DNA of 64,000 bases from DHVE2 group archaeon (GCA_026993785.1 JALWRZ010000012.1:61817-125816); one strand, 5' to 3'. Shown: positions 19,038 to 36,662, numbered from the stretch's first letter. A program made the numbers and translations. The notes: generated by a model not told the origin, from the letters alone.

Positions 19038-19904
19038 CTACTTATACACCTTCTCCAGCACCTGCGGGATTTCCCACGGGAACTCTGCCACAGGAACGCC
19101 TGCTTCATTGAACGCCTTTATCTTGCTCTCCGCGGTTCCTTTGCCACGGGTTATTATGGCTCCTGCGTGTCCCATTCTCTTGCCCGGCGGTGCAGAGCGT
19201 CCAGCAATATAGGCCACGACTGGTTTGCTCACGTTTTTCTTTATGTATTCTGCCGCTTCCTCTTCCGCCGTTCCACCTATTTCGCCCACCAACACGATAG
19301 CTTCAGTATCATCGTCTTTCTCAAAGAGCTCCAGAACATCCACGAAATTCAATCCCGTAATTCGATCTCCGCCAAGCCCTATAACCACACTTTGACCGTA
19401 GCCATTGAGGGTTAAAGCGTTCACTATCTCATAGGTGAGCGTACCACTACGAGATGCGACGGCTACAGTACCCTTGCGGAATATGTGATTGGGCATGATA
19501 CCTATCTTCGTCTTTCCAGGCACCGTAATTCCTGGACCATTGGGGCCTATAACCACATATCCATGGCTCCTGGCATAGGTTACGATTTCCAGAGCATCGT
19601 GCAGAGGAACCTTCTCCGTGAGGATATACACCACTCGGATTCCGTGATACATTGCCTCGAAGGCTGCATCCTTCACAAATCTCGCAGGCACAGCAATCAT
19701 GGTTGCATCGGGCTCGTGAACCATGGCTTCCTCCACCGTATCGTAAACGGGAACATCATGCACCTTCATGCCACCCTTTCCGGGCGTTACACCTGCAACT
19801 ACCTTGGCGCCAAATTTTATCATCTCTCCACTGTGAAAAGAGCCCTGATGCCCGGTTATGCCCTGCACTATTATCCTTGTATTTTCATCCACAATCACGC
19901 TCAT
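19038..19904 (-). CDS. sucD: Succinyl-CoA ligase (ADP/GDP-forming) alpha subunit
   Basis: 'RIIVQGITGHQGSFHSGEMIKFG', CoA-binding domain, active-site His region 'MGHAGAIITRGKGTAE'. Confidence 0.95.
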   Translation of the reverse strand: MSVIVDENTRIIVQGITGHQGSFHSGEMIKFGAKVVAGVTPGKGGMKVHDVPVYDTVEEAMVHEPDATMIAVPARFVKDAAFEAMYHGIRVVYILTEKVPLHDALEIVTYARSHGYVVIGPNGPGITVPGKTKIGIMPNHIFRKGTVAVASRSGTLTYEIVNALTLNGYGQSVVIGLGGDRITGLNFVDVLELFEKDDDTEAIVLVGEIGGTAEEEAAEYIKKNVSKPVVAYIAGRSAPPGKRMGHAGAIITRGKGTAESKIKAFNEAGVPVAEFPWEIPQVLEKVYK

Positions 19905-21013
19905 TGTGATCCCTCCATTATAGATTTGAGCTTTTCAATTGCATGCCGCATATCTGCAAAGGCATGAATACCCGCGTCTGCCAGCATCTTGCGTCCCTCT
20001 TCCTCGTGCACTCCGCTCAACCGAACAACAATTGGGAGATCGATTTTGAACTCATCCTTCGCTGCGATTATTCCCTGGGCAACCGTATCGCACTTGGTTA
20101 CACCACCGAATATGTTCACTAAGATGGCCTGGGGATTGGCTTTAAGAACGTAACGGAACGCGTTCTTGGTGATATCCACACTATCGGTGCCACCCAAATC
20201 CAGAAAGTTCCTGGGTTTGAGTCCATAGAGAAGCAGGGTATCTAACGTGGCCATAGTCAATCCTGCACCGTTGGCTATCACACCTATATTTCCGTCGAGT
20301 TCCACGAAGGCATATCCTGCTTTGTTTGCTTCTAATTCCAGTGGCGTTTTCTCCTCCGCGTTCTCCTCCAGGTCAGGATGTCTGTAAAGGGAGTCTGTGT
20401 CAATCACAACCTTGGAGTCCGCCGCTATAAGCTTTCCTTCACTCAGAACAAGGGGATTGATCTCCACCAATTCCGCATCGTACTCCCGGAAAAGACGATA
20501 TAGATTGATGAGAATCTTTGTGAATTGCTTTGCGAGATCCCCGGAGAATCCCATTTTTTTGGATAGAATGCGACCCACAAAGGGCTGTACACCGATCTCG
20601 GGATTTACGGAATACTTGTAAATTTTCTCATCGGGTACACTTTCTATTTCAACACCGCCCTCCGGTGAGGCCATGATGAGCGGTGCTCGCGTGCTTCTAT
20701 CAATGAGGATACTAAGGTAATACTCCTTCTCGATTTTCAGCTTCTCTTCCACGAGAACTGCATGTACCTTGTGTCCCTTGATTTCCATTGCCAGAATCTC
20801 CCTAGCTTTCTGGCGAGCTTCTTCAACACTGGATGCAAATTTTACACCCCCGCTTTTGCCACGACCCCCGGTGAGAACCTGGGCCTTCACCACTACTTCT
20901 CCTTCCACATTCACGATATCTTCAGGCTTATAAGCTACGAATCCCTGGGGTGTTGGTACCCCGTATTTTCTGAATAGCTCTTTTCCTTGATACTCGTATA
21001 GATTCATCCTCAC
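19901..21013 (-). CDS. sucC: Succinyl-CoA ligase beta subunit
   Basis: ATP-grasp start 'MNLYEYQGKELFRKYGVPTPQG'; 'NFLDLGGTDS', 'NIFGGVTKCD'; overlaps sucD. Confidence 0.95.
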   Translation of the reverse strand: MRMNLYEYQGKELFRKYGVPTPQGFVAYKPEDIVNVEGEVVVKAQVLTGGRGKSGGVKFASSVEEARQKAREILAMEIKGHKVHAVLVEEKLKIEKEYYLSILIDRSTRAPLIMASPEGGVEIESVPDEKIYKYSVNPEIGVQPFVGRILSKKMGFSGDLAKQFTKILINLYRLFREYDAELVEINPLVLSEGKLIAADSKVVIDTDSLYRHPDLEENAEEKTPLELEANKAGYAFVELDGNIGVIANGAGLTMATLDTLLLYGLKPRNFLDLGGTDSVDITKNAFRYVLKANPQAILVNIFGGVTKCDTVAQGIIAAKDEFKIDLPIVVRLSGVHEEEGRKMLADAGIHAFADMRHAIEKLKSIMEGSQ

Positions 21014-22323
21014 ACCTCCTTTATCAATCCGTTCTCCATAAGGAGTTTGAGAGATTTACGAGATCTTTCAATAATCTCCTTTGCATTCTCATACTCTTCA
21101 TCCCAAGTGATATATCTTCTCGCCACTCCTGCCTCCAGGGCCGCTACTGCTACGGTAGCTGCTTCCCTGGGAAATATATCCCAGTTCTCCATGGTGGGTA
21201 GGATTTTGTCCTCGTGTAACCCTTCCTCCTCACCCACTCTGGCAAGCTCATAGGCAGCTGCTACCGCCATGCTATCAGTAATCGTAGTTGCCCGAACATC
21301 TAATGCTCCCCTGAATATTCCCGGGAATCCCAGGGAGTTATTTATCTGATTGGGAAAATCTGAGCGTCCCGTGCCCACTATTCTCGCTCCAGCTTCCTTA
21401 GCCTCATCGGGCCATATTTCAGGCACAGGATTCGCGAGGGGGAACACTATAGCATCATCGTTCATCTTAGCGATCCACTCCTTCTTTATAACGCCAGGAC
21501 CCGGACGGGTAAAGGAGATAAGAATATCCGCGTCTTTGAGCGCTTCTTCCGGGCCACCCATCACATTGTCCCTATTGGTTTTTCTGAGTAGGCATCCTCT
21601 GTAGGGGAACAATCTCGCAAGATCCATATGCTGATGGAGCACCGTGGGTTCGCGATTTACAAGCTCTACCACCCTAATATTTCCGGGATCTACACCTGCC
21701 TCGATGAGCAATCTTATAACGGCGAATCCCGCAGCACCTGCTCCAAAGGATGCAACCACAACATCCTCAAGTTTCTTGCCCACAATTTTAAGTGCGTTTA
21801 TCACCGCGGCAAGAACCACTGTGGCTGTTCCCTGCTGATCATCGTGCCACACCGGTATATCCAGCTCCTTGCGAAGGCGATCAAGGATGTAAAAGCATTT
21901 GGGCGAAGAAATATCCTCTAAGTTGATCCCTCCAAAGGAGGGGGCTATAAGTTTGACAACCTCTATGAACTTGTCGGGATTCTTCGTATCAATCATTATG
22001 GGAAAGGCGTCCACACCTCCAAAATGCTTGAAAAGGAGAGATTTGCCCTCCATTACAGGCAATCCTGCAAGAGGCCCGATATCTCCAAGACCAAGAATGC
22101 GGGTGGCATCGCTTATAACGGCGACGGTGTTTCCCTTATTTGTGTATTCATAAACCTTCTCCCTATCTTCCTTTATCTCCTTGCAGGGCTCAGCCACACC
22201 TGGCGTGTACCAAATGCTCAGATCAGAGAGATTCCTAACCGGAACCTTGGAAAATACCTGAATTTTGCCACGATACCTGCGATGCAATTCCTTAGCCTTT
22301 TCCTTTAGAGCTTCATCTGTCAT
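21010..22323 (-). CDS. Malic enzyme (oxaloacetate-decarboxylating)
   Basis: 'SIWYTPGVAEPCKEI', 'FGGINLEDISSPKCFYI', 'VWHDDQQGTATV', 'FGAGAAGFA'. Confidence 0.92.
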   Translation of the reverse strand: MTDEALKEKAKELHRRYRGKIQVFSKVPVRNLSDLSIWYTPGVAEPCKEIKEDREKVYEYTNKGNTVAVISDATRILGLGDIGPLAGLPVMEGKSLLFKHFGGVDAFPIMIDTKNPDKFIEVVKLIAPSFGGINLEDISSPKCFYILDRLRKELDIPVWHDDQQGTATVVLAAVINALKIVGKKLEDVVVASFGAGAAGFAVIRLLIEAGVDPGNIRVVELVNREPTVLHQHMDLARLFPYRGCLLRKTNRDNVMGGPEEALKDADILISFTRPGPGVIKKEWIAKMNDDAIVFPLANPVPEIWPDEAKEAGARIVGTGRSDFPNQINNSLGFPGIFRGALDVRATTITDSMAVAAAYELARVGEEEGLHEDKILPTMENWDIFPREAATVAVAALEAGVARRYITWDEEYENAKEIIERSRKSLKLLMENGLIKEV

Positions 22324-22354
22324 TTTTATCGCCGCTATGGTATTGCTTCATGCC

Positions 22355-22362
22355 GTATATAC
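22355..22362 (-). promoter_or_regulatory. Putative TATA box of the malic enzyme-sucCD unit
   Basis: Minus-strand GGTATATACGG about 30 nt upstream of the malic enzyme ATG in the 44-nt gap after the LutB-like gene. Confidence 0.5.
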
Positions 22363-22367
22363 CTTTT

Positions 22368-23648
22368 CTATTGCACTTCCTTGGCAAATTCCTCGATTTC
22401 CTTGGCAAAGTCACGCACGATCTTTGGAACATAGCCCTCCTTGCGGGCATCATTGCGCAGCTTGGATATCATCGCAGGGATATCTATATTAAGGGGACAC
22501 ATGACTTTGCATTTTCCGCAGCGCACACAGGTGTATGCGATGGGACTAGCCTTTTCCAAACCTACCGTGGTGAATGCGTCCCATATAGCTCCGATTCCAC
22601 CCATATACTGCTGCCCAAAATAACCGGCGGTTACCGCATAAACTGGACATTCGTAGAGGCATGTGCCGCAGCGTAGGCAGTAAAGAGCCTCTTGATAGCC
22701 AGAATCACGCATCCTTGTCCTTCCATTGTCAAGAAGTATGACATGAAGCTCCTTTGGACCGTGGGCTCCGTAGGTGATGACCTTCTCTATATCCCCCGTC
22801 TTGCTCGGTCCGGATATAAGATTAACATACGCAGGCACCGTATAATTTGCGTATCTCCATGTAACCTCTGTTACCTTAAAGGCATCCTCAATGGTAGGCA
22901 CGATTTTCTCTACGCCGACAATCGCGATTTGCACAGGAGGTGCTCCTATGCTCAGCCTTGCATTTCCCTCATTTTCAATTATGAACATCGTACCCGTATC
23001 AGCGGCTAGCGCATTGGCTCCATTTATACCTATATCTGCGTTAAAGAACTTATCGCGCAGAAATTTACGGACAGTTTCCACCATCTTAGGAATATCCCTC
23101 TCATCCAGGTCCTCCGTTATTATACCATGCTCCTTCATGAATTTGCTTAAAAGCTTTGCCACATCCTCCCGTGGAACGTTTATAGCTGGGGCTAGGATAT
23201 GTGTGGGTCTAGTGCCCATCAATTGCACAATAAACTCGCCTAGATCAGTTTCGTAAACTTCGTTACCCAGTTCCTCCAGGAATCCTCGGAGGTCTATTTC
23301 CTCGCTCGTTAAACTCTTGCTCTTCACAATCAATTTTCCGCTGCCCACTAATTTTTTGAAGATTTCCAGCGCTTCCTCTTTGCTCTTGGCGTAATAACAG
23401 TGACCGTGATTGCGCTCTATGCTCTCGCATGCCTTCTTTATTAACTCGTCCATATGCTCTATGCTATATTCCTTTATCTTGCGAACTTCTTTAGCTAGTT
23501 CAATACTATGAGGGAACATACTCAACGCATTTCTTCGATTGTTCTCAAAAGCCTTAATCGCACGGGATAGTGCGATGCGAACCTTTTCGCTCTTTGCCCC
23601 GTATTCAACGATGCGGTTAACATATTCCCTGTAAACTTCGTCAATCAT
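22368..23648 (-). CDS. LutB-like LUD-domain iron-sulfur protein
   Basis: N-terminal LUD domain, then 'CLRCGTCLYECPVYAVTAGYFGQQYMGGIGAIWDA' and 'CVRCGKCKVMCPLNIDIP'. Confidence 0.85.
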   Translation of the reverse strand: MIDEVYREYVNRIVEYGAKSEKVRIALSRAIKAFENNRRNALSMFPHSIELAKEVRKIKEYSIEHMDELIKKACESIERNHGHCYYAKSKEEALEIFKKLVGSGKLIVKSKSLTSEEIDLRGFLEELGNEVYETDLGEFIVQLMGTRPTHILAPAINVPREDVAKLLSKFMKEHGIITEDLDERDIPKMVETVRKFLRDKFFNADIGINGANALAADTGTMFIIENEGNARLSIGAPPVQIAIVGVEKIVPTIEDAFKVTEVTWRYANYTVPAYVNLISGPSKTGDIEKVITYGAHGPKELHVILLDNGRTRMRDSGYQEALYCLRCGTCLYECPVYAVTAGYFGQQYMGGIGAIWDAFTTVGLEKASPIAYTCVRCGKCKVMCPLNIDIPAMISKLRNDARKEGYVPKIVRDFAKEIEEFAKEVQ

Positions 23649-24422
23649 TTACTCCACCCCCTCAAGGGCCATGTCCACAAGATTAGCATAGGCCATGGCC
23701 TTTATAGGGAATTTTCCGTGCTTCACTCCCGCCTTGAAAGCGTGATATCCATTTCCACAAGTTGATACCACTGCATCCACTTCCCTGGGCAGCGCATATT
23801 CCCGTATAACATTGCTTGCAACATAGGGCATGAGTTCAGGCAGTGTAAAATCCAGCCATCCACCGGGACACGCGGATATATCCCATGGCTTGAGATTTCT
23901 CTCCTTTACATAAAGCTCAGGGTGGTCAAAATTCAATACCTCCAATTTTGGAATCTTGGCCAGCACCTTTCTCGGCTCTTCCACAACACCCATCTTTCTT
24001 CCCAGCGTGCAACCATCATGAAGTAGGATTCTCATCGGAAGCTCCTTAAATTTAAGCTTGTCGAGGTTTTTGTAGAGGAATGTGGCCATATGCTCTATTG
24101 GCACAGGCAGTTCGTATCCTCTTTGCACAAGGAATCCGTTACGCTCCTTGCTCCAGGCGGCATAGGGTGCAGCGTAGGAAGTTAAGATCAGATCTACGTC
24201 TTCTTTGCTTACAACTTCCTCCACTTCTTTTAGAGTTGCCTTAGCTAGGGGATCCACAAGATTATCATAGCCAAGGAAGCCTATGGCCTCGGCGCATATC
24301 ACTTTGCTCTTGTGGGGCACATACTCGTGCCCCATTTTCTTAATTATCGAAACTGAGGCGTCGCAAATTTCAGGCACACCCAGGCGAGGCGATGTATCCC
24401 ACCCATAGAGAAGGATTCTCAT
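23649..24422 (-). CDS. CCG-domain-like (HdrB/LutA/SdhE-related) protein with depleted cysteine motifs
   Basis: Starts MRILLYGWDTSPRLG; 'HDGCTLGRKMG', 'ISACPGGWLDF', 'VVSTCGNGYHAF' sit where CCG proteins have C...CCG...CxxC. ORF-track start 24512 overlaps the upstream gene; ATG at 24422 preferred. Confidence 0.65.
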   Translation of the reverse strand: MRILLYGWDTSPRLGVPEICDASVSIIKKMGHEYVPHKSKVICAEAIGFLGYDNLVDPLAKATLKEVEEVVSKEDVDLILTSYAAPYAAWSKERNGFLVQRGYELPVPIEHMATFLYKNLDKLKFKELPMRILLHDGCTLGRKMGVVEEPRKVLAKIPKLEVLNFDHPELYVKERNLKPWDISACPGGWLDFTLPELMPYVASNVIREYALPREVDAVVSTCGNGYHAFKAGVKHGKFPIKAMAYANLVDMALEGVE

Positions 24423-24427
24423 TTTCC

Positions 24428-26125
24428 TCACTCCAGAATTGGTAAATCGATTTTCCTCGCCAGAGCCCTCTTTCCGCGGTAATCTGGTAGCAGTATCGGG
24501 GAGCGACGCCACTCAGGCACACCTATACGGCGAATCTCCTCGGCGAAGAGTTTAACATGCTTCAAGGTCAATTTGCCAGGCTTACCAGAATTGCGGACCA
24601 CTTTAGCTGCGGAGATTCCTGCACGGCGTCCGAAGACATTGTAATCAAGAAGCGAGTTGCCCATGAGGCGGTTCTTACCATGCACTCCGCCCTCCACTTC
24701 TCCGCCTGCGAAGAATCTCGGATAAGGTGAGCCATCTCCTTTTATCACCTGGGCATTGGCATTTATTTCTACGCCACCATTCTGATAGTGCAGCGTGGGG
24801 AACACAAGTATCGGGTCCTTGGTCATATCTATGCCAAATCTCTTATACATACGATACATAGCATCCAAGTTCTTGCGTATAGCACCTTCACCCTGCAATT
24901 CTTCAATCATCGGGGAATCGAGCCACACACCCCGCATTCCCGTGGGTGTTTTCACGCAATTGTTGCGGCCGTAGCATTCCCTTATGAACATGGCAGCCTC
25001 TACGTCTCTCGGCTCCAGAGGGAACACAAATCTTTCTCCGTATTTATTTACGGGAGTTGCACCCATAGCGCGGACCTTCTCCGTTATAAGTAATCCCACA
25101 ATCTGCTCCGGATAAGCAGCGCCTGTGGGATGATACTGCACGGAATCCAGATCTCTCAATCTCGCACCTGCACGATAGGCCATAACAAGGCCATCCGCCG
25201 TAGCTCCATAATGATTCGTCGTAGGGAACCCTCTTATGTGCAATCTGCCCCAGCCTCCAGTAGCAAGCACTGTTGCCTTAGCTCGCACAACGTAATACTC
25301 TTTGGTTTCCATATTCCAGAGGATGGCCCCACCTATCTCGCCATCTTCGGTGGTTATCAGCTCCACGGCGGGGGAGAATTCGAGTACAGGTATTCCACGA
25401 TTTCTTGCCTCGTCGCGTATCACACGCATAATCTCCATTCCTGTGTAATCCTTGGCGGAGTGCAATCTCTTGCGTGAGGTGCCTCCACCCCATCTCTCTA
25501 TGAAATTGCCTTTCTCATCCTTATCGTACATCACACCCAGTTCTTCGTGCCATTTTATAATGAGGGGAGCATCTTCTGTGAGTGCCTTCACCAGCTCATG
25601 TTTGTTGGCAAAATGGCCACCACCAACCACATCAAAGTAGTGAATAATAGGTGAGTCCCAGGGTCGATCGGCCGCTTGAATTCCGCCCTGAGCCATCATG
25701 GAATTTGCGTCTCCATGCCTCAATTTTGTCGCTATCAGTATATTCTCGGCAGGCACTCCCTCATAATTAGCCCAGAGAGCGGCGACGGTTCCTGCACCGC
25801 CACCTCCTATTATGAGAACATCCACATCGTAATCAATATCGCTCAAATCCACATCGTCAGGATTCAATGCAGGCCATGCCTCAAGAATATCAGCCACTTC
25901 ATTTGGTACTATTTCGCCGCGATTTACACCCACCTGTAGTTCTCTCTTTCCTCCAGGTGCGTAATCTGGATGGAATTTGTTAAGAACTTCCGCTCTTTCT
26001 TCTTCGCTGAGCGCAAGTTCTTTTTCCTTTTCTTTCTCCTTTATCCTCTGATCCCTTGTCTTTTCAACCATCTCGATGCTTTCACGCATATATTCAGGAT
26101 AACCTCTAATCAGTTTCAGTGTCAT
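24428..26125 (-). CDS. Fumarate reductase/succinate dehydrogenase-type flavoprotein (possibly thiol:fumarate reductase A-like)
   Basis: FAD motif 'DVLIIGGGGAGTVAALWA', 'ANSMMAQGGIQA', 'VQYHPTGAAYPE', 'LHYQNGGVEIN', 'GGEVEGGVHGKNRLMGNSLLD'. Confidence 0.88.
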   Translation of the reverse strand: MTLKLIRGYPEYMRESIEMVEKTRDQRIKEKEKEKELALSEEERAEVLNKFHPDYAPGGKRELQVGVNRGEIVPNEVADILEAWPALNPDDVDLSDIDYDVDVLIIGGGGAGTVAALWANYEGVPAENILIATKLRHGDANSMMAQGGIQAADRPWDSPIIHYFDVVGGGHFANKHELVKALTEDAPLIIKWHEELGVMYDKDEKGNFIERWGGGTSRKRLHSAKDYTGMEIMRVIRDEARNRGIPVLEFSPAVELITTEDGEIGGAILWNMETKEYYVVRAKATVLATGGWGRLHIRGFPTTNHYGATADGLVMAYRAGARLRDLDSVQYHPTGAAYPEQIVGLLITEKVRAMGATPVNKYGERFVFPLEPRDVEAAMFIRECYGRNNCVKTPTGMRGVWLDSPMIEELQGEGAIRKNLDAMYRMYKRFGIDMTKDPILVFPTLHYQNGGVEINANAQVIKGDGSPYPRFFAGGEVEGGVHGKNRLMGNSLLDYNVFGRRAGISAAKVVRNSGKPGKLTLKHVKLFAEEIRRIGVPEWRRSPILLPDYRGKRALARKIDLPILE

Positions 26126-26126
26126 G

Positions 26127-26951
26127 TTAATCCTCTCCTATTAATTCTAATGGGTCTTCAATTCTTTTCTCCTCTTTCTCACGACCTTCAGTAAGAAGCT
26201 GGTAGTAAAGATCCTTAAACTTATCAGGCTCTTCTTCACGCATCTTCTTCACCAATTCATAAGCCTTCTCGTACATTCCGCTCTCTATCTCCTTCAGCCT
26301 TCTCCTAAGCCAGGGACTCTTAGGAAGCATGTATTTGCCGTATATTCTGCGGGCGAACTGAGCCATATGGTAGTGTTGAATCTCGGCCGGGCAGCGAAGG
26401 GTGCACAACCCGCACTGAATGCAATCGAAGCTCAACTCCGCAACTCTCTTTATATCTCCACGTATTCCTGCCTGAATATAATACATCACATCCAGTTCCT
26501 GCGGGCATGCTTTGGTACAGGTGTTGCAAGAGACGCATCTTGCAATCTCTGGATAGTATTCCAGAAGGATATTGGGTGAGGGTTTGACCTTCTCCATATC
26601 GTAGGTTGCCTTGTTTGCAGGCACAAAGGGGATCTGGGCAAGATACATTCCGTCTTCCACAGTGGTTTGACATGCCAATGCTGTTCTGAATCTATATTCT
26701 CCCTTCTTTCTGTAGATGGTGGCGCAGGCACCACAGAATCCCGCACGGCAGCCAGCACCTCGGATATATCTGTAGCCCGCATATTCTAACGCTTTCATAA
26801 TTGTCAGGCCTGCGGGCACCTTATAGGGCTTACCCATCACATATATCGTCACCCAGTGCTCCACCTCCTCAGGGGGGGATGCTGCCTTCTTTATCTCCTC
26901 CATTATTTTCTCGCTATCCACATCAAGCAGCTCAACCTTCTTACCCATCAC
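26127..26951 (-). CDS. Succinate dehydrogenase/fumarate reductase-type iron-sulfur subunit
   Basis: 2Fe-2S-type motif 'GAGCRAGFCGACATIY' and two 4Fe-4S-type motifs 'CVSCNTCTKACP', 'CIQCGLCTLRCP'. Confidence 0.88.
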   Translation of the reverse strand: MMGKKVELLDVDSEKIMEEIKKAASPPEEVEHWVTIYVMGKPYKVPAGLTIMKALEYAGYRYIRGAGCRAGFCGACATIYRKKGEYRFRTALACQTTVEDGMYLAQIPFVPANKATYDMEKVKPSPNILLEYYPEIARCVSCNTCTKACPQELDVMYYIQAGIRGDIKRVAELSFDCIQCGLCTLRCPAEIQHYHMAQFARRIYGKYMLPKSPWLRRRLKEIESGMYEKAYELVKKMREEEPDKFKDLYYQLLTEGREKEEKRIEDPLELIGED

Positions 26952-28015
26952 TCCTCACCCCCTAACAGACCCTCGAATTCATGCAGTTCATCTTCGCGGA
27001 AGTCCATAACAGGCGGGATATCATCATTAACGCCAGGCTTGTAATCAAAGACCTTCTGCAGGTCGTTGCCTACTATTCCGAACAGACGATAAAGCGGGAT
27101 ATCCATTGGGCATGCCTGCTGACACAGACCGCAGCCTATACAGGAGGTTCCCATATGTATAAGCCTCCCTATGTGGAATAGCGTCTTATCTGTAGGAAGC
27201 CTGATTCCATCCTTGTCGTCTGCCCAGTTGAAATACTTGGAAGATTCATAGTCGAACACACTATGATCTTCGAAGAAGCACTCCTTGCAGAAGCATATGG
27301 GGCACATATCCTTGCAGTTGTGGCAGTTAAGGCAGGAGGAAAGGAACTCTTCTATGCCCTTCCTTCCGCCTGTTATGCGCTCCTCCTCAAGCCACTTCTC
27401 ACGGCGCTCACGATGCATTTTAATCCATTCGTCGGCGTTGCGGGAACCCTCCTGAATACCCATGGCCGCAAGAAATTCTTTACCGATATCGCTCAGGGAG
27501 AAGAACACGGGCTCTTTTGCATTTACAAGTCCCAGAGCTATATCTCCCACACCGGGAATCGGCGCAGGATATTCACATACTTTGCAGGAATCACGTATCT
27601 TATCGCTTTTTCCCCCTTTCTTTATCTCTTCTATAAGTTCCTCCACGGGTACCTTATCATATTTGTAATTCCTGGCATGAATTGTGCCCGGACAATCGTA
27701 GGTCAGCACAATAATATTCTCAGGATTAATCTGATTGAATTTCACAAGCTCCTTAAAGGTTCTCGTCTCACAGGGTCTAAGGATTGCAAGCATCCTTCTC
27801 TCGGCCTTTTTAAGTTTTGTGATGCGGCGGAGCATGTCCGCACCGTTCCACTGCATCACAGGGGCAATAGGAGTTAGCTTATCTACATCCTCCTTCTTGG
27901 TGATAAGCGCATAGGTATACGAATCCTGTGTGGCTGCAGGAGCCATGACCGCCTCTATGAGGCCCTTTTCAAAGGCATCCTTGAGGAATTTCTTCAGCAA
28001 TTCATTTTCACTCAA
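26948..28015 (-). CDS. FrhB/FdhB-like iron-sulfur flavoprotein (coenzyme F420 hydrogenase beta-subunit family)
   Basis: 'ILRPCETRTFKELVKF', 'CLNCHNCKDMCPICFCKECFFE', 'CIGCGLCQQACPMDIP'. Likely TTG start at 28015 after GGAGGTGA; ORF-track ATG is 28090. Confidence 0.8.
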   Translation of the reverse strand: MSENELLKKFLKDAFEKGLIEAVMAPAATQDSYTYALITKKEDVDKLTPIAPVMQWNGADMLRRITKLKKAERRMLAILRPCETRTFKELVKFNQINPENIIVLTYDCPGTIHARNYKYDKVPVEELIEEIKKGGKSDKIRDSCKVCEYPAPIPGVGDIALGLVNAKEPVFFSLSDIGKEFLAAMGIQEGSRNADEWIKMHRERREKWLEEERITGGRKGIEEFLSSCLNCHNCKDMCPICFCKECFFEDHSVFDYESSKYFNWADDKDGIRLPTDKTLFHIGRLIHMGTSCIGCGLCQQACPMDIPLYRLFGIVGNDLQKVFDYKPGVNDDIPPVMDFREDELHEFEGLLGGEE

Positions 28016-28454
28016 TCTCTTCACCTCCCAAAGAATCGAGATACTTGAAATCCGATGGACCTCTCTCCCTAATATACGCGGTATATTCATTCATTACCCT
28101 TGCAAATTTGGGGCCCTCGCTTCCGGAGATCCATTCAAGGAGTACGCGGGTATCGTCGAACCCGAGACTCTTGAGCACCGTCTTAACTATGGCCACTCTT
28201 CTCCTTGCCTTGTAGTTGCCCGTGATATAATGGCAATCTCCTGGATGGCATCCTCCTAATATAGTGGCATCAGCGCCTTCTTGTAAAGCACGAATAAGGT
28301 ACACAGGATCAACGGTGGACGAGCACATAACGCGTATGGGCCTTATGTTGGGTGGATAATGCAATCTTGCAGTACCTGCAAGATCCGCTGCCGCCGAAGT
28401 ACACCAGTTGCAGAAGAAGCCCACAATCACTGGATCAAAATTTTCTTCCTTCAT
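28008..28454 (-). CDS. MvhD/FlpD-type hydrogenase delta subunit
   Basis: 'GFFCNWCTSAAADLAGTARLHYPPNIRPIRVMCSSTVDPVYLIRALQEGADATILGGCHPGDCHY' is characteristic of MvhD. Confidence 0.92.
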   Translation of the reverse strand: MKEENFDPVIVGFFCNWCTSAAADLAGTARLHYPPNIRPIRVMCSSTVDPVYLIRALQEGADATILGGCHPGDCHYITGNYKARRRVAIVKTVLKSLGFDDTRVLLEWISGSEGPKFARVMNEYTAYIRERGPSDFKYLDSLGGEEIE

Positions 28455-30994
28455 TTTACTACCTCCTTTAACATTTCAAACACTCCAGTTGGGCTATACG
28501 CCCTTATTATGGCGGCCCCGCTGGGACAGACAGAGGTGCATGCGCCACATCCCATACAAAGTGCAGGGCGCACCTTTGCAATTTTATCTTCCTCATCAAT
28601 ATATCTTGCACCCGTGAAACAGGCATCTACACAAATTCCACAGCCTGCACATTTACGTGGATTAGTCACACTTATAAACTTGCCCGCCGGCGAGGTTATA
28701 TCTCGCATAAGATACGTAGCACTCTGTGCAGCGAATCCCGCTTCCTCCACTTCCTCTTCTATGCTCATGGGCCTATGGGCCAATCCAGCTATGAACACCC
28801 CGCCGAAAGGCTCTTCAAAGAGCATGAACTGAATACCAGCGCGCTCAACCCATTCCCTCGGCTCCTCGGCAAAGAAGAAGAATCCTTCCTCATCCAATTT
28901 GAGGCCCAGCAGCTCCGCGATCTTCCTGTTGTATTCTCTCGGCTTCACATAGGCCACCGGTTCACCCTTGCCACGCTCTGCCTCAGGGGGATTCAAATCT
29001 AAGAGAGAGAAAGATTTCATCAGATCATAGGTGGCCTTCACTCCCTTTCTCTTGGCATAGATGGATGCCAGGGATGCATGGAGCGTGGTGCCCTCCAACC
29101 TGGAGGTTATGTGTGAACCTTTTTCCACGATTTCTCCACCTGTGGCTATTATAAGAACTCCCACATCTATATCTTCATCCCCCACACTTATTCTGAAATT
29201 GCCCAGGGAACCTTCAATTGAATCCACGCTTCCCTTTATCCACTGCACCCTCTTTAGAACCCTCTCTTTGAGATCAGCGTACCATCTTTCCAGCTCTTCT
29301 CTTGGCATATTCAACGTATCGCTTTTTACCCCTGTTGCATCATACACAGGATCAAAGTCTTCCGTGATTATGTAAACAACCGGTACCTTATTCACAAGGT
29401 AATCCGCCGCTATCAGGGCAGCAAGATCACCGCCTATTATCGCCACCCTCTTTACCGTTTCAACTGTGGGAACTTCTACGAATACATCTCTGCGAGCTTT
29501 AGCCACCGCTGCATTGAGCATAGCACTCGCTTTCCTTGAATCTCCACCTACACGGGACACATATTCTCGAAGTTGCACGAGTTCCACATAGGATGAGTGT
29601 ATTCCCGCTTTGTTGGCAAGCATTTCAAGCATACCACCACGAAGCGCTGGACTGCACGCGCCAAATACCACGCGATTTAAGCCATTCTCTTTTATTTCCT
29701 TAACAATTTCCTCTGGATGCATACACAGGAAATCCTTTTCCACCACATAATCTGCATTCACCTCCGCCTTTAAATCTCCCAGAGCACATTTGCAGAGGAA
29801 AACGCCAACCTTGGGATTGAAATCATCCACGTTGAATTCCATCTTGGGCATCTCGGGCATTTGGGGAGGCTTCAAATACTTCTCCACCTGTGGAACTATG
29901 GCTGTACCCTGATATATAGCCTCGGTGCTACCCAGGGGTTTGAGGAATGGGCCTATGACAAATATGCCATCCCTTGTGGTCTCAAATGTAAAGGGCCTAG
30001 TTTTCGCAAATCCATTCTCAATTTCTATTCCCATTCTCTCAGCCATCTCTTTCCATTCTTCAGGAACCTTTTGGCCGGGCATGACAACAAAGAGATCAAG
30101 ATGAGTTCCATTTACCTTAACACCGTCTCCATCCTGCTCAATGGAGAAATCATCTATGAGATGAACATTTATTCCCTTCTCTATGGCCTTATCGTAGAGA
30201 ACCATCTGATTATGTCCGTAAAGACGTATCTCCTTGAGGAAGATATGGATATCAAGCGATGGATCCATTTCCTTCATATTCAGTGCTTCTCGGAATATTA
30301 TCACCTGCTCTTCATAGGAGCCCAAATACCCCTCAAAGCCTGCCGGGGTAAAGAATCCCAGAGATTTGGGATACTTCCCATCCTGGGTCTGGAGAAATCT
30401 CTTATCCACGCCCTTACCCCGGAATAGCCAGGCAAATTCCCGGAACGACATAACATTCTTTAAGTTTCCTCCAAATTTCTCAATGCTTTCTGGCTCATAT
30501 TCGGGGGATAGAACTACAGCATCCACCGTCTCCTCCTTCTCCTCTTCCTTGGGAATCTGAATGGCATTCACAGGACAAACATCTAGACACTCTTCCGCAT
30601 TCTTTATTATCCTCATACCAGGACCGAGGGGCATGGGGATGAATTTTACATCGCATTTATCGTGACATATGTCACAGCCTATGCACTTAAATTCATTGAC
30701 TGTCTGCGGCCTGTGCTTGAATTTTACTCTGAAATTGCCAGGACCTCCTTCAGCACCGAGAATTTCGGCATTGTGATACACCTCAATATTCCCCGTCATA
30801 TTTGCAACTCCAAGCAGAACGCCCTTGGAATAACCGTTTATGATATCCCTGGGCTGCTGCCACTGCATCTGGGTAAACTTGTGCCAGAGAAACTCTCCAC
30901 GATTGAGAAGAACTACCTTATGCCCCGCTCGGGCAAAATTGGCAGCGGCTCGATATGAGGCAAGAGAAGTTCCAAAAATGAGAACCTTACCCAT
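28451..30994 (-). CDS. HdrA-like protein 2 (degenerate nucleotide-binding motifs, multiple ferredoxin motifs)
   Basis: ~847 aa; 'CIGCDICHDKCDVKF', HdrA-like 'VGVFLCKCALGDL...VVFGACSPALRGG', C-terminal 'CAGCGICVDAC' and 'CMGCGACTSVCPSGA'. Start 30994 preferred over 31027. Confidence 0.8.
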   Translation of the reverse strand: MGKVLIFGTSLASYRAAANFARAGHKVVLLNRGEFLWHKFTQMQWQQPRDIINGYSKGVLLGVANMTGNIEVYHNAEILGAEGGPGNFRVKFKHRPQTVNEFKCIGCDICHDKCDVKFIPMPLGPGMRIIKNAEECLDVCPVNAIQIPKEEEKEETVDAVVLSPEYEPESIEKFGGNLKNVMSFREFAWLFRGKGVDKRFLQTQDGKYPKSLGFFTPAGFEGYLGSYEEQVIIFREALNMKEMDPSLDIHIFLKEIRLYGHNQMVLYDKAIEKGINVHLIDDFSIEQDGDGVKVNGTHLDLFVVMPGQKVPEEWKEMAERMGIEIENGFAKTRPFTFETTRDGIFVIGPFLKPLGSTEAIYQGTAIVPQVEKYLKPPQMPEMPKMEFNVDDFNPKVGVFLCKCALGDLKAEVNADYVVEKDFLCMHPEEIVKEIKENGLNRVVFGACSPALRGGMLEMLANKAGIHSSYVELVQLREYVSRVGGDSRKASAMLNAAVAKARRDVFVEVPTVETVKRVAIIGGDLAALIAADYLVNKVPVVYIITEDFDPVYDATGVKSDTLNMPREELERWYADLKERVLKRVQWIKGSVDSIEGSLGNFRISVGDEDIDVGVLIIATGGEIVEKGSHITSRLEGTTLHASLASIYAKRKGVKATYDLMKSFSLLDLNPPEAERGKGEPVAYVKPREYNRKIAELLGLKLDEEGFFFFAEEPREWVERAGIQFMLFEEPFGGVFIAGLAHRPMSIEEEVEEAGFAAQSATYLMRDITSPAGKFISVTNPRKCAGCGICVDACFTGARYIDEEDKIAKVRPALCMGCGACTSVCPSGAAIIRAYSPTGVFEMLKEVVK

Positions 30995-30995
30995 T

Positions 30996-33900
30996 TCAGA
31001 ACACCTCCGCCAGCACATCCACCGCACGAATTATTTGACCCTTCTTGAAATTCACAACCTGTATGGCGGTGGTGGGACAATTTGCGCTGCAAGCGCCGCA
31101 TCCCTCGCAAAGTGCCTCATTAACCACAGCCACGTGCCTCACGGGATCGATGCTGATGGCTCCATAGGCACACTGGTCCTTACATCTGCCACAACCTGCG
31201 CAGATTTCAGGGTCAACTCTTGCAAGAAGAGGTTCCTTCTCCAGCTGCGGCTTTGAAAGCAGAGCCATGGCCTTCGCCGCGGCACCGCTTCCCTGAGAAA
31301 CGCTATCCGTGATATCCTTCACAAATTGCGCGGCACCGGCGATGAACACGCCACCAACAGGTGTTTCAAGAGGCTTGAGCTTGAGATGCGTCTCCTTTAG
31401 CCAGCCCCACTCATCGTAGGGTATGCGCAATTTCTTAGCGAGCTCCTTTACACCCTCGCTTCCCTTGGCAGCGGTGGCCAAAACAACCATATCAACATCC
31501 ACTTCCACTATTCTTCCTGTGAGCGTGTCGACTCCCTGCACTCTATACTTATCGCCTACTTTGTAAACCTTGGAAACTTTGCCACGGATGAAATTCACAC
31601 CATATTCTTCCTTTGCACGGTGATAGAACTCCTCGTAACCCTTGCCGTTGGAGCGAATATCGATGTAGAAATCATACACCGCGGTATTGGGCAATGCATG
31701 CTTCACAAGCATTGCCTGCTTTATGGTGTACATACAGCATATTCTGGAGCAATATGGCACGCCGTTCTGGGGATCTCTTGAGCCTACGCAATGCACAAAG
31801 GCTATGCTTTCAGGAACTTTACCATCCGATGGACGGCGCGGTATTCCCGCAGTAGGTCCGGAAGGAGCAAGGAGCCTCTCAAATTGAAGAGCATTAAGAA
31901 CATCGGGATACTTGCCCCCCAGTTCGGGAAATGCTTCCGGGGGCATAACTTCGAAGCCCGTGGCTACTATTATCGCACCTACATCCTCCTCCACTATCTC
32001 ATCCTTCATGGTGAGATCTATAGCATTTACATCGCAGACCTCCAGGCACAGTCCGCACTGGGCACATCCGCCGCAACCAAGGCAGCGCTTCGCTTCATCC
32101 ACAACATCCTCATCGCTGTAGCCAAGATTGAATTCCTTGAAAGTCGAAACCCTCTCTTTCAAATCCAGTTTCATGGTGTCATGGCGCCCGGCAGGATATG
32201 CAAGCTCGGGGAAGCCACGGAGATTGCTCTTCCACTCTATCTTTACCTCCTCCATCTCCTCTCCTTCAAGGTAATGCATAACGTTCTTGGCAGCCCATCT
32301 TCCATAGGCGGCAGCATGAACCCAGTCCCAAGCACCGGTGACGGCATCCCCTGCGGCAAAAACACCATCAAGGGATGTGCGAAGATATTCATCCGTCTTT
32401 ATCCTGTTTCTCTCCACCTCAATGCCAAGCTTCTCAGCGAAGGATGCATCGGGAATTTCACCAACTGCAAGGATTACAAGATCCGCAGGCATTTCCTCAT
32501 ACTCACCTGTTGGAATGGGTCTTCTCCTTCCACTCTCATCCTTCTCTCCAAGTTTCATCTTCTCAAGTTTTATAGTGCCATCCTTTATCTCCGCCGGGGA
32601 TACTAGGAATTTGAATTTTACGCCCTCCTCTTCAGCATCATCCACTTCCTCGGGTATTGCGGGCATCATCTCGCGCACGCGGCGATAGGCAATGGTTACA
32701 TCCGCACCCAATCTCAACGCAGTTCTAGCCGCATCCACCGCGCTGTTTCCTCCTCCTATAACCACAACCTTCTTGCCCTTGAGGTCCATCTTCTCTCCAA
32801 GATTTACCTTGCGCAGGAATTCGAGAGCATGCAGCGCTTTTTCCTCTCCAGGAATGTTGAGATGCCTCTCCTTATGGGTGCCTATTGCTATAATAACTGC
32901 ATCATGCTTCTTTCTTATTTCCTCGAAATTCTTCTCATTGACCTCATAATTGAGAACAAATTTAACGCCTGCATCTATAAGGGGCTGCACTTCCCTATCG
33001 ATAACCTCCTGCGGCAATCTGTAAGGCGGGATGCCCACAGCGAGCATGCCTCCAATCACTGGCAACTTATCATAAACGGTGACCTTATACCCCTTCTTTC
33101 TCAAATCATGGGCAGCCATTAACCCAGCGGCTCCGGCACCTATAATTGCAACGCTCTTATCCTTCTCACCCTCAACATGGAGCACATACCTCTTTTGGTT
33201 CTTCTCAGCCCAGTCGGCTACGAATCTCTTTATTTCACGGATACCCACAGGCTTATCCACAAATCTGCGGGAGCAGGCATCCTCGCATGGATGTGTGCAT
33301 ATTCTCCCGGCAATTCCCGCAAAGGGTAAGTTCTCCCATACAACCTCGATGGCACGGTCAAATCTGCCGGCCTTGGCAGCGGCCACATAACCCTGAGCGT
33401 TGAGATGCAGCGGACAAGCTGCGTTGCATGGCGGCACACCGTAGCGGGTAATGGTGTATTTGAAAGGTACCGCCTGCTCAAAGGGTATATGCGTGGCTTT
33501 TCTCGTAGCCATTTTAAGATCAAAATCACTTGGCAGCACTGTGGGACACACCTTGGCACATTCTCCGCAGCCCGTACACTTGTTCCAATCTATATAGGGG
33601 GATTTCTTCCTTATCTTAACTTTGAAATTGCCTAAATAACCCTCTACCTCCTCCACCTCGCTATATGTGTAAAGCTTTATATTGGGATGCGAACCTACAT
33701 CGTTCATTTTAGGTGTGAGGATGCACTGGGGGCAATCCAGCGTGGGAAATGTTTCGCTCAATCTTATCATGTTTCCCCCGAGAGAGGGGTTCTTCTCCAC
33801 AACCACCGTTTCGATTCCCGCGTCTGCAAGATCCAGGGCTGCCTGCATTCCTGCAACACCGCCTCCAATTACAAGCGCACGTTTTATAACCGGCACCTCT

Positions 33901-34313
33901 ATGGGATGTAGCGCAGCATTGGCCTTGAGCTTCTCTATGGTGGCGTTAATTATACGTATCGCCTTTCTTGTGGCTGCCTCTGGGTTATCCTCATGGGGCC
34001 AGGCAGCCCACTCTCGTATATTTGCAATCTCCACACGATAGGGATTCAAACCCGCTCGGGCAGCGGCATTGCGCATGGTCCTCTCATGCAGTGTCGGGGA
34101 GCAATTGGCAACCACAACCCCATCGAGATTGTATTTTTTAATGGAATCCTCAATAAGTTTCTGGCCTGGCTGTGAGCACATGAAAACGTAGGTTGTGGAA
34201 AATGCCACATCCTCCCTCTTTCCAATCTCCTCAGCGACGCGTTTAACATCCACAGTACCTGCAATATTGCGACCACAATGACAGATAAACACACCTATTC
34301 TTTTCATAGCCAT
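30996..34313 (-). CDS. hdrA: HdrA (heterodisulfide reductase subunit A) with an inserted GltD/NfnB-like NAD(P)H:FAD module
   Basis: HdrA start 'IGVFICHCGRNIAGTVD', 'CSPTLHERTMR', FAD 'VIGGGVAGMQAALDLADAG', HdrA Cys cluster; GltD segment 'VAIIGAGAAGLMAAHDLRKKGYKVTVYDK' and 'VVVIGGGNSAVDAARTALRLGADVTIAYRR'; terminal ferredoxin domain. Confidence 0.93.
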   Translation of the reverse strand: MAMKRIGVFICHCGRNIAGTVDVKRVAEEIGKREDVAFSTTYVFMCSQPGQKLIEDSIKKYNLDGVVVANCSPTLHERTMRNAAARAGLNPYRVEIANIREWAAWPHEDNPEAATRKAIRIINATIEKLKANAALHPIEVPVIKRALVIGGGVAGMQAALDLADAGIETVVVEKNPSLGGNMIRLSETFPTLDCPQCILTPKMNDVGSHPNIKLYTYSEVEEVEGYLGNFKVKIRKKSPYIDWNKCTGCGECAKVCPTVLPSDFDLKMATRKATHIPFEQAVPFKYTITRYGVPPCNAACPLHLNAQGYVAAAKAGRFDRAIEVVWENLPFAGIAGRICTHPCEDACSRRFVDKPVGIREIKRFVADWAEKNQKRYVLHVEGEKDKSVAIIGAGAAGLMAAHDLRKKGYKVTVYDKLPVIGGMLAVGIPPYRLPQEVIDREVQPLIDAGVKFVLNYEVNEKNFEEIRKKHDAVIIAIGTHKERHLNIPGEEKALHALEFLRKVNLGEKMDLKGKKVVVIGGGNSAVDAARTALRLGADVTIAYRRVREMMPAIPEEVDDAEEEGVKFKFLVSPAEIKDGTIKLEKMKLGEKDESGRRRPIPTGEYEEMPADLVILAVGEIPDASFAEKLGIEVERNRIKTDEYLRTSLDGVFAAGDAVTGAWDWVHAAAYGRWAAKNVMHYLEGEEMEEVKIEWKSNLRGFPELAYPAGRHDTMKLDLKERVSTFKEFNLGYSDEDVVDEAKRCLGCGGCAQCGLCLEVCDVNAIDLTMKDEIVEEDVGAIIVATGFEVMPPEAFPELGGKYPDVLNALQFERLLAPSGPTAGIPRRPSDGKVPESIAFVHCVGSRDPQNGVPYCSRICCMYTIKQAMLVKHALPNTAVYDFYIDIRSNGKGYEEFYHRAKEEYGVNFIRGKVSKVYKVGDKYRVQGVDTLTGRIVEVDVDMVVLATAAKGSEGVKELAKKLRIPYDEWGWLKETHLKLKPLETPVGGVFIAGAAQFVKDITDSVSQGSGAAAKAMALLSKPQLEKEPLLARVDPEICAGCGRCKDQCAYGAISIDPVRHVAVVNEALCEGCGACSANCPTTAIQVVNFKKGQIIRAVDVLAEVF

Positions 34314-35194
34314 GGGGCAAGCACCTCCTTCGGGGAAATGTAATGGCGATCAAAATGAAGTACATCATCGCCCTTCAATCCAAAGGCAATCGCCATTAAC
34401 TGCGTGAAATACACTATGGGCATATGCTCAAAATCATTGTGTTTTTGCTTTGCTATCTCCTGCCTCCTATCTAAATTGAAGAAACAGAGAGGGCATGACG
34501 TGGCAATAACATCCGCACCCACATCTCTGGCAACGGAAACCAGTTTGTATGTTCTCTCCGCCACGAATTCTCTTTTATCCACCGTATGATATGAGCCGCA
34601 GCACTCGTTCTTGAGGGGATAATCCACAACTTCTGCACCCAAAATTTCAAGCAATTCTTCCATTATGTGAGGGTCCTCTCGATCATCGATTGCCACCTCA
34701 TCGGGGCGGAGAAGAAGGCATCCATAATAGGGGGCCACTTTAAGTCCTTTCAGAGGATTATTCACCTTCTCAGCAATGTTATCGAATCCATATTCCTTTA
34801 GAAATTGAAGATAGTGCTGCACATTGATATTTCCCTCATAATCTGGCTCTTCATCCATAAAAAGGTCCAAAGTTTTAAGTTTGTCGCGATTTCTCATTAC
34901 ATCGATATGCGCCCTCCGCAAATTATTGTAGCACATTGAGCATACTGCAATGAGACGATTGTCCCCTATCTCCTTGCCGTATTCCTGCGCCTTAATAAGA
35001 TTGCGAACATTGGCGATGGTGAACTTTACGCTATCCTGCGCGAGTCCATAGACAGCACCGCAGCAGGTCCATCCAGGTAGCTCGATAAATTCATAACCCA
35101 GTTCTCTGGCCGTGGCAAGGGTGCTATCTTCCAAATTTTTTGCTACACCCTTCAACGTGCACCCAGGGTAGTACATGATTTTCTTCAAGGCCAT
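34304..35194 (-). CDS. hdrB: Heterodisulfide reductase subunit B (HdrB)
   Basis: Two complete CCG motifs: 'YYPGCTLKG...GWTCCGAV...CSMCYNNL' and 'YYGCLLLRP...ECCGSYHT...CPLCFFNL'. Confidence 0.95.
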   Translation of the reverse strand: MALKKIMYYPGCTLKGVAKNLEDSTLATARELGYEFIELPGWTCCGAVYGLAQDSVKFTIANVRNLIKAQEYGKEIGDNRLIAVCSMCYNNLRRAHIDVMRNRDKLKTLDLFMDEEPDYEGNINVQHYLQFLKEYGFDNIAEKVNNPLKGLKVAPYYGCLLLRPDEVAIDDREDPHIMEELLEILGAEVVDYPLKNECCGSYHTVDKREFVAERTYKLVSVARDVGADVIATSCPLCFFNLDRRQEIAKQKHNDFEHMPIVYFTQLMAIAFGLKGDDVLHFDRHYISPKEVLAPWL

Positions 35195-35203
35195 TCTTTC
35201 ACC

Positions 35204-35605
35204 TCACGGAGTGAATTTTCTAAAGTTGCTAACCAAGGCAATTGGAGGCAAAATATCCCTCTCATCCACCTTGTAGGGATCAACATAATCGTAATTCTTG
35301 CGAAGCTGCAGTTCGCGGATTGCTTCCATAACAGCAGCTAAATCAAGGCCCACGGGGCAGCGAACCGTGCAGGTGAAGCAGGCGGCGCAGATCCAGGGGG
35401 TTTTCGCTTTAAGAAGTGTGTCCACATCACCCTCCTGGAGAAACATGAAAACCTGATTGGGGAGAACATCCATAAACTCGGCCATGGGGCATCCTGAGGA
35501 GCAGCGCCCACATTGATAGCAGGAGAAAATATTCTGGCCACTTATCTCAATTATTTCCTGAACCCTCTCATCCTGATGCGGATCTTTTTTAATGGTATAT
35601 TTCAT
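35204..35605 (-). CDS. hdrC: Heterodisulfide reductase subunit C (HdrC)
   Basis: 'CYQCGRCSSGCPMAEFMDVLPNQV' and 'CAACFTCTVRCPVGLDLAAVMEAIREL'. Start at internal ATG (MKYTIKKDP) preferred because of TATA/SD placement; ORF track starts at 35680. Confidence 0.9.
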   Translation of the reverse strand: MKYTIKKDPHQDERVQEIIEISGQNIFSCYQCGRCSSGCPMAEFMDVLPNQVFMFLQEGDVDTLLKAKTPWICAACFTCTVRCPVGLDLAAVMEAIRELQLRKNYDYVDPYKVDERDILPPIALVSNFRKFTP

Positions 35606-35611
35606 TTCTTT

Positions 35612-35625
35612 CACCAACCTTGGTG
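35612..35625. promoter_or_regulatory. Inverted repeat CACCAA-CC-TTGGTG at the hdrC translation start region
   Basis: Perfect 6-bp arms, 2-nt spacer; on the minus strand the downstream arm contains the GGTG of a Shine-Dalgarno-like GGTGA ahead of ATG 35605. Confidence 0.55.
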
Positions 35626-35630
35626 GTTTT

Positions 35631-35649
35631 ATATTCCAAAGTGGAATAT
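35631..35649. promoter_or_regulatory. Operator-like palindrome ATATTCCA-AAG-TGGAATAT overlapping a TATA box
   Basis: Perfect 8-bp arms, 3-nt spacer; minus strand reads TTTGGAATATAAAACC, so one arm overlaps TATAAAA located ~25 nt before the hdrC ATG. Confidence 0.65.
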
Positions 35650-35837
35650 CGAGAGATAAACCGTGAATAATGACATCCATATTAATATTTTCGGTGGAGC
35701 GTTTATTTAACTTATTTTTTTGCGTTTTTTATCACAAAATTTACGGCTTCTGAACAAAAAATTCTTCCAAATTTACAATTTTCGAAACGCGTTCTCCCAG
35801 GAGAAACTACAAATAGAGTTTTTAGCATTCCCCCAGC

Positions 35838-36662
35838 ATGAAAACCATCATTTTGCACGGTGGTGCATCCCATAGAAGTGAGCTTAGCAAAATTCTTGAA
35901 AAATATGCGAAGGAGGCCATCGAGGAGAATAGCGCCCTGGATGCGGTAGTCAAGGCAGTAGTTCTAATGGAGGACGACCCGGAGTTTAACGCGGGCACCG
36001 GTAGCAATATGCGTCTGGACGGTAGCATACAGATGGATGCAGCGGTTATGATTCCCGGTGATTTTGGCGGCGTTATAAATATAGAAGAGGTGAAGAACCC
36101 TGTGCTCGTTGCCAGGGATGTAATGCTCAAATCCCCCCATATGCTTCTGGCCGGCGATGGCGCGGTTAATTTTGCCAGGAAGATGGGGTATCCTACCTAT
36201 GATCCCTCCACAGAGAAAGCCAGAGAGAGAAGGGAAAAAGTTCTACAGAAGCTTAAATCTGGAGAGATTCCCGAGTACTATCACCCTCAATTTTTCAGGG
36301 AATTTCTGGGAGATACCGTTGGAGCTGTGGCAAGATTTGATGGAGAGTTTGCGGCAGCCGTATCAACGGGAGGAACAAGCCTTACCCTGCGGGGCAGGGT
36401 GGGCGATTCGCCCATCATAGGCTCCGGTATATATTGCGGTTCGCGAGGTGCCGTGGTGGCTACGGGAATAGGCGAAGAAATAATGAGAAGAATGCTTTCC
36501 ATAAGAATCTACGAGAGAATCGGAGAAGCACCTCTACAAAAAATCTGCAGGGAAGAAATAGAAAAATTCGGAAGCATACCGGTGGGTGTTATAGCCATCA
36601 CGGCTGAGGAAGAATGCGCTATGTCAAATCTCGCCATGCCCTATGCCCAAGTTACGAGGTAA
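35838..36662 (+). CDS. Isoaspartyl peptidase/L-asparaginase (Ntn threonine hydrolase)
   Basis: 'ILHGGAS', 'DPEFNAGTGSNMRLDGSIQMDAAVM', catalytic 'GDTVGAVA', 'VSTGGTSLTLRGRVGDSPIIGSGIY'. Confidence 0.92.
   Translation: MKTIILHGGASHRSELSKILEKYAKEAIEENSALDAVVKAVVLMEDDPEFNAGTGSNMRLDGSIQMDAAVMIPGDFGGVINIEEVKNPVLVARDVMLKSPHMLLAGDGAVNFARKMGYPTYDPSTEKARERREKVLQKLKSGEIPEYYHPQFFREFLGDTVGAVARFDGEFAAAVSTGGTSLTLRGRVGDSPIIGSGIYCGSRGAVVATGIGEEIMRRMLSIRIYERIGEAPLQKICREEIEKFGSIPVGVIAITAEEECAMSNLAMPYAQVTR

Follow-up and report, generated by a model that had tools for sequence, protein, structure and literature searches.

Electron-bifurcating heterodisulfide reductase (Hdr) genes have been described next to fumarate reductase genes in bacteria. 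In tubeworm symbionts and in Thioflavicoccus mobilis, a flxABCD-hdrABC cluster is interspersed with korABCD and tfrAB, and a joint complex with direct electron delivery to Tfr and to 2-oxoglutarate:ferredoxin oxidoreductase has been proposed (PMC6315080); in the Riftia symbiont the cluster shows operon-like co-expression, with a different pattern for tfrAB (PMC11636981). Here we analyze an operon of 13 genes, hdrC to sucD, in a 64,000-nucleotide stretch from a DHVE2 group archaeon (JALWRZ010000012.1:61817-125816; hereafter the window, on which all coordinates are counted). As in the symbionts, Hdr bifurcation genes are associated with genes for fumarate reductase (Frd) and 2-oxoglutarate:ferredoxin oxidoreductase: relatives of the host have hdrABC linked to both frd and kor genes, while in the host genome kor lies away from the operon. 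The symbiont cluster, however, is bacterial and fed with NADH via FlxABCD, whereas the present one is archaeal, spread over a phylum and has GltD, FdhB or MvhGA as input; it also differs by an iron-sulfur (Fe-S) subunit devoid of a CCG domain, a second HdrA, and malic enzyme (mae) and sucCD genes within the operon. We regard it as a new variant, from archaea, of a type of Hdr-fumarate reductase coupling that has been predicted but not proven, and lean toward reading it as a soluble bifurcating fumarate reductase.

Other known systems share parts of this design. Methanogen TfrAB also pairs a soluble FrdA-type flavoprotein with a [2Fe-2S]/[4Fe-4S] partner but, as far as the account of Heim 1998 cited in PMC6315080 goes, TfrB has its own CCG thiol site, absent here, where HdrB is the neighbor and the setting is not methanogenic. 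With methanogen HdrABC-MvhADG and HdrABC-FdhAB, the operon has HdrA1, HdrB, HdrC, MvhD and an FdhB-like subunit in common, yet fumarate reductase genes replace the methanogenesis partners and there is an extra, degenerate HdrA2. Type III HdrA of Bathyarchaeota and ANME-1 has, as here, a GltD domain placed inside its ferredoxin domain (PMC12054007), but with a GXGXXG motif instead of the NADPH-type GXGXXA; the linkage to fumarate reductase, and an insert that is present or absent among close relatives, are further differences. The Ehe cluster of Culexarchaeia, non-methanogens without synthesis of coenzyme M (CoM) and coenzyme B (CoB), likewise unites SdhA and HdrA2B2C2 (PMC9723716). Its center is a membrane hydrogenase, and it includes CdhA and GcvH; the window operon has no such subunits. 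We found no published description for DHVE2/Aciduliprofundum or Thermoplasmatota in the open-access literature, outside which most subscription journals lie. The gene combination, which a first, sequence-only reading of this DNA suggested might be undescribed, is found in relatives too, and related clusters have already been proposed (PMC6315080, PMC9723716).

The operon and its constant core

The host is a heat-loving archaeon of the DHVE2/Aciduliprofundum type (1.66 Mb genome, 99.8% complete). All 13 genes are co-directional on the minus strand (19038-35605), with successive gaps of -83 to +44 bp and none above 44 bp; within the first ten, hdrC to the lutB-like gene, spacing is -83 to +9 bp, the figure of -83 bp hinging on an uncertain fdhB start. 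The sequence-only reading had correctly given the place, order and strand of these ten genes but ended the operon at the LUD gene, where a 44-bp gap is followed by malic enzyme, sucC and sucD (19038-22323, minus strand), joined by 4-bp overlaps and belonging to it too. The features are:

35606-35837, minus strand: A+T-rich intergenic region toward a divergent asparaginase-like gene, possible promoter (sequence only)
35204-35605, minus strand: hdrC, 133 amino acids from the start supported by relatives (open reading frame readable from 35680)
34304-35194, minus strand: hdrB, two CCG motifs (motifs and conserved cysteines)
30996-34313, minus strand: hdrA1, GltD domain inserted in the ferredoxin domain (about residues 289-740)
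28451-30994, minus strand: hdrA2, degenerate double HdrA
28008-28454, minus strand: mvhD/flpD (PF02662, E 8e-49)
26948-28090, minus strand: FdhB-like subunit, start uncertain (PDB 9t1s, 8rvu, 7bkb; weak FrhB_FdhB)
26127-26951, minus strand: fumarate reductase Fe-S subunit, [2Fe-2S] and two [4Fe-4S], without CCG domain
24428-26125, minus strand: frdA, flavoprotein with N-terminal extension (PF00890, E 1e-68; active site kept)
23649-24422, minus strand: degenerate CCG protein, accessory (open reading frame 23649-24512)
22368-23648, minus strand: LutB-like LUD and Fe-S protein, accessory (PF02589, E 2e-53)
21010-22323, minus strand: malic enzyme (family match; position kept in relatives)
19901-21013, minus strand: sucC, succinyl-CoA synthetase beta (NF001913, above cut-off)
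19038-19904, minus strand: sucD, succinyl-CoA synthetase alpha (named by its place after sucC and its own sequence; adjoins sucC in relatives)

The divergent gene (35838-36662, plus strand) is beta-aspartyl-peptidase/asparaginase-like and is placed likewise in G001, L005 and two closed Aciduliprofundum-type genomes; its product may feed aspartate toward fumarate.

Every DHVE2-family genome for which the region is available has the operon, among them two closed genomes (1,486,778 and 1,437,090 bases), the former with the full gene set. Beyond this family, the FrdA subfamily with the N-terminal extension occurs in about 60 genomes across Thermoplasmatota, reaching many further families of the phylum at 55-77% identity. 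We compared 29 such loci from outside the window's family with 15 control Frd/Sdh (succinate dehydrogenase) loci of the phylum; the figures are counts, with no formal test, from loci that are not independent (several share a family) and from contigs some of which end early. The Fe-S subunit gene adjoins frdA in 29/29 loci versus 0/15 controls, and similar contrasts appear for nearby hdrA (26/29 versus 0/15), hdrB (25/29 versus 2/15), mvhD (19/29 versus 0/15) and korA (22/29 versus 1/15; kor genes overall, 21-22/29). Of the remaining genes, hdrC is nearby in 23 of the 29, MvhG/A hydrogenase in 11-12, sucC/D in six and an FdhB-like gene in five, and in 18 hdrB is both co-directional and no more than 2 kb away. 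The gene order kept through the DHVE2 family, together with this clear-cut contrast to the controls, excludes a chance arrangement. HdrABC-MvhD and Frd make up the constant core, and it is the electron-input module that changes (GltD insert, FdhB, MvhGA, NfnAB-like).

The LUD and CCG proteins, both missing from several relatives, were rejected as core subunits. Their genes are absent together in L001, L007, L008 and L010, where a diverged malic enzyme occupies the same place (62-70% identity, versus 78-91%), and the three genes look as if they had been exchanged as a cassette. The LUD protein had been counted as part of the complex, but wherever the operon lacks lutB there is no LUD protein anywhere in the genome. 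In the host, the LutB-like protein is the one LUD protein and scores 344 bits against TIGR00273 (cut-off 445), too low for a LutB/LldF assignment; its CCG partner is degenerate and the LutA/LutC set is not complete. In this partner, first labeled CCG-like, few cysteines remain and most CCG cysteines are gone.

Cofactor sites and electron input

All the components of an HdrABC-MvhD complex are encoded: an HdrA carrying an FAD motif and [4Fe-4S] clusters, a double-CCG HdrB, an HdrC with two [4Fe-4S] motifs, and MvhD. The eight cysteines of HdrC are kept in 30/30 sequences, and the ten CCG cysteines of HdrB at 94-100% in 32 sequences. HdrA1 has the FAD motif GGGVAG at residue 150 and four CxxCxxCxxxC motifs; its score against the HdrA model (773 bits) is under the exception-model cut-off of 1100. 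Apart from the GltD domain it is a normal HdrA; the insert separates the cluster at residue 246 from that at residue 750 and lies within the ferredoxin domain, as in type III HdrA. The GGGNSA (GXGXXA) motif of the insert, followed by YRR, suggests NADPH as substrate.

The insert is present in seven of 14 operons (counting L002, whose fragment spans part of it) and absent from the other seven. The two HdrA1 alleles are mixed among close relatives (window 30996-34313; L001-L010, L024, L025, L029, L069): the N-terminal part of HdrA1 groups by allele (support 0.99), counter to the tree of the other operon proteins, where the window is sister to the insert-free L001. This conflict is an indication of recombination or transfer between genera. 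At L067:7520-12953, NADPH-sulfhydrogenase-type genes adjoin a stand-alone GltD/NfnB-like protein that shares 39% identity with the HdrA1 insert.

The second HdrA, first labeled HdrA-like2, proves to be a double HdrA in degenerate form, in which two dinucleotide motifs are eroded and three CxxCxxCxxxC motifs intact; HdrA proteins are its closest solved structures by sequence, and it is probably a wire or scaffold. The subunit first called FrhB-like is of the FdhB type according to its best solved relatives, beta subunits of F420-linked formate dehydrogenase in HdrABC complexes (9t1s, 8rvu, 7bkb; E 3e-28 to 1e-18), while Pfam FrhB/FdhB models give only weak matches (E 0.06-0.08). At window 370-2280 (minus strand) lies a formate-dehydrogenase-alpha-like molybdopterin protein of 636 amino acids (TIGR01591, 240 bits, below the 666 cut-off), a possible, unlinked partner of this subunit. 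F420, initially proposed as a partner, is an unlikely electron carrier and was rejected because CofD was not found in 18 genomes, with positive controls.

FrdA is the sole Sdh/Frd homologue of the host genome, and Sdh/Frd flavoproteins are its nearest solved structures by sequence. H332, T348, E349, R373, H446 and R486 correspond in alignment to the dicarboxylate-site residues of E. coli SdhA; at every readable position they are invariant across 36 sequences. The histidine that binds FAD covalently in SdhA/FrdA is replaced by asparagine (Asn141) in all 36. Non-covalent FAD is associated with fumarate reduction, as in soluble fumarate reductases and E. coli FrdA H44 mutants, which makes fumarate reduction the likelier direction. 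Among named proteins, FrdA is closest to TfrA (298 bits against the TfrA model, below the cut-off of 718), and the CCG and Fe-S proteins are closest to TfrB. In 37/37 sequences the Fe-S subunit keeps 12 cysteines, for one [2Fe-2S] and two [4Fe-4S] clusters; it ends without the CCG domain that TfrB carries in fusion; the CCG domains are found in the separate HdrB and in the degenerate CCG protein. This makes HdrB its obvious partner. The operon contains no membrane-anchor gene as in complex II. Among frdA copies of G074, G080, G161 and G277, some have one or two in-frame stops (TAG, TAA or TGA), which could reflect recoding, errors in assembly or the decay of a second copy.

The metabolic setting was checked by single-family searches. 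mcrA was not found in the 99.8% complete host genome, which agrees with the non-methanogen context first noted. ComA was not found either, in a search that also gave no match in the control Methanosarcina acetivorans and did not cover other CoM/CoB routes. Nor was an MqnA-type menaquinone gene found, the classical Men route not having been searched. Fumarase is present in the host, and elsewhere in its genome are a 2-oxoacid:ferredoxin oxidoreductase (KOR) of the kind found beside the cluster in relatives, and NADPH-sulfhydrogenase-type and membrane-bound hydrogenases. Aspartase was rejected as a fumarate source: the two Lyase_1 matches read, by sequence and context, as adenylosuccinate lyase and argininosuccinate lyase, the latter adjoining argininosuccinate synthase.

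Proposed coupling of NADPH, ferredoxin and fumarate

With somewhat more confidence than doubt, we infer from gene content and conserved residues that the operon encodes a soluble, quinone-independent HdrABC-MvhD-Frd complex that would couple NADPH, ferredoxin and fumarate/succinate, with direct transfer to Frd. Electrons would enter from NADPH through the GltD domain of HdrA1, and/or from a donor at the FdhB-like subunit, and reach the FAD of HdrA. The high-potential branch would then lead through HdrC, HdrB and the [2Fe-2S]/[4Fe-4S] subunit to the FAD of FrdA and to fumarate (+33 mV), and the low-potential branch from HdrA to ferredoxin. The net reaction would be 2 NADPH + fumarate + 2 oxidized ferredoxin -> 2 NADP+ + succinate + 2 reduced ferredoxin. 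SucCD and malic enzyme from the operon, with fumarase and KOR from elsewhere, could complete a malate-fumarate-succinate-succinyl-CoA-2-oxoglutarate segment, which might run in reverse (confurcation) upon 2-oxoglutarate oxidation. In the forward direction the segment would be redox-balanced, as the two reduced ferredoxins gained per fumarate equal the two used by KOR per succinyl-CoA. Given standard potentials of +33 mV for fumarate, -320 mV for NADPH and -420 mV for ferredoxin (PMC5861303), the forward standard free energy is by our own arithmetic about -49 kJ/mol (-68 and +19), or near -33 kJ/mol if ferredoxin stands at -500 mV. Fumarate reduction is favored by these energetics and by the loss of the covalent-FAD histidine; the match between ferredoxin output and KOR need, along with kor genes in 22/29 loci, favors a soluble bifurcating fumarate reductase. 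From the initial interpretation, the soluble Hdr-centered unit linking NAD(P)H, ferredoxin and fumarate/succinate is retained, F420 and the LUD protein are removed from its core, and malic enzyme and succinyl-CoA synthetase are added.

Several observations weigh against such a complex. In type III HdrA, the GltD insert is proposed to block ferredoxin (PMC12054007); in the window's version ferredoxin might then bind at another site (HdrA2 or FdhB) or go unused, or FdhB might terminate the second branch. Half of the relatives have no insert, and NADPH cannot therefore be the universal donor. HdrB keeps an active-site-type double CCG, also fit for a real disulfide, and the scheme assigns no firm role to HdrA2, the FdhB-like subunit or the LUD/CCG pair. 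AlphaFold models gave no structural help, being too poor for use (mean predicted local distance difference test score of 57 for HdrA2 and 37 for FrdA).

The intact CCG motifs of HdrB, and the closeness, among named relatives, of FrdA to TfrA (298 bits) and of the CCG and Fe-S proteins to TfrB, would also suit a disulfide cycle, in which Frd oxidizes a small or protein thiol, like methanogen Tfr, to reduce fumarate, HdrABC-MvhD separately reduces the disulfide with bifurcation, and a common thiol carrier explains the shared operon. We find this unlikely: in every lineage examined the Frd Fe-S subunit is devoid of the CCG thiol site, the extra CCG protein lacks most CCG cysteines and is missing from several relatives, and no carrier thiol is known, with mcrA and ComA not found (for ComA a weak argument, the control methanogen being negative too). 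The disulfide substrate initially put forward is not needed, HdrB regularly adjoining a CCG-less Frd Fe-S subunit, though it retains some probability.

The same complex could instead work oxidatively, confurcating electrons from succinate and from reduced ferredoxin (obtained from 2-oxoglutarate) to NADPH or H2 during peptide and glutamate fermentation. Relatives do ferment peptides, and KOR, MvhGA hydrogenase, malic enzyme and SucCD are neighbors; a similar succinate-to-pyruvate route has been proposed for Culexarchaeia (PMC9723716). We nevertheless hold this direction to be improbable, its standard free energy with NADP+ being about +33 to +49 kJ/mol and the FAD of FrdA being expected to be non-covalent. 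Finally, that hdr and frd are co-transcribed but independent, Hdr serving general redox balance and Frd being fed directly by NADPH or ferredoxin, is very hard to sustain: accessory genes do come and go, but the hdrB/hdrC-frd linkage is phylum-wide, hdrB being co-directional and at most 2 kb away in 18/29 loci, and no other electron-input subunit stands beside the Fe-S subunit.

A possible coupling site for the phylum

Extended to the whole phylum, the soluble bifurcating fumarate reductase would be a module in which HdrABC-MvhD is wired directly to FrdA and the Fe-S subunit, accepts interchangeable inputs (NADPH, H2, other) and yields reduced ferredoxin exactly as the neighboring 2-oxoglutarate:ferredoxin oxidoreductase needs it; we propose this extension tentatively, the chances standing a little below even. 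The family includes cultivated Aciduliprofundum and is directly testable, and it clearly illustrates the exchange of electron-input modules while the core stays fixed. If our reading is true, fumarate would be a terminal acceptor of HdrA-type bifurcation, so far only a published prediction, and this would explain how anaerobic archaea without an obvious quinone route reduce (or make) fumarate while gaining low-potential ferredoxin for 2-oxoglutarate synthesis. Were it to hold across the phylum, the complex would represent an energy-coupling site for the reductive arm of the tricarboxylic acid cycle that requires neither quinones nor membranes.

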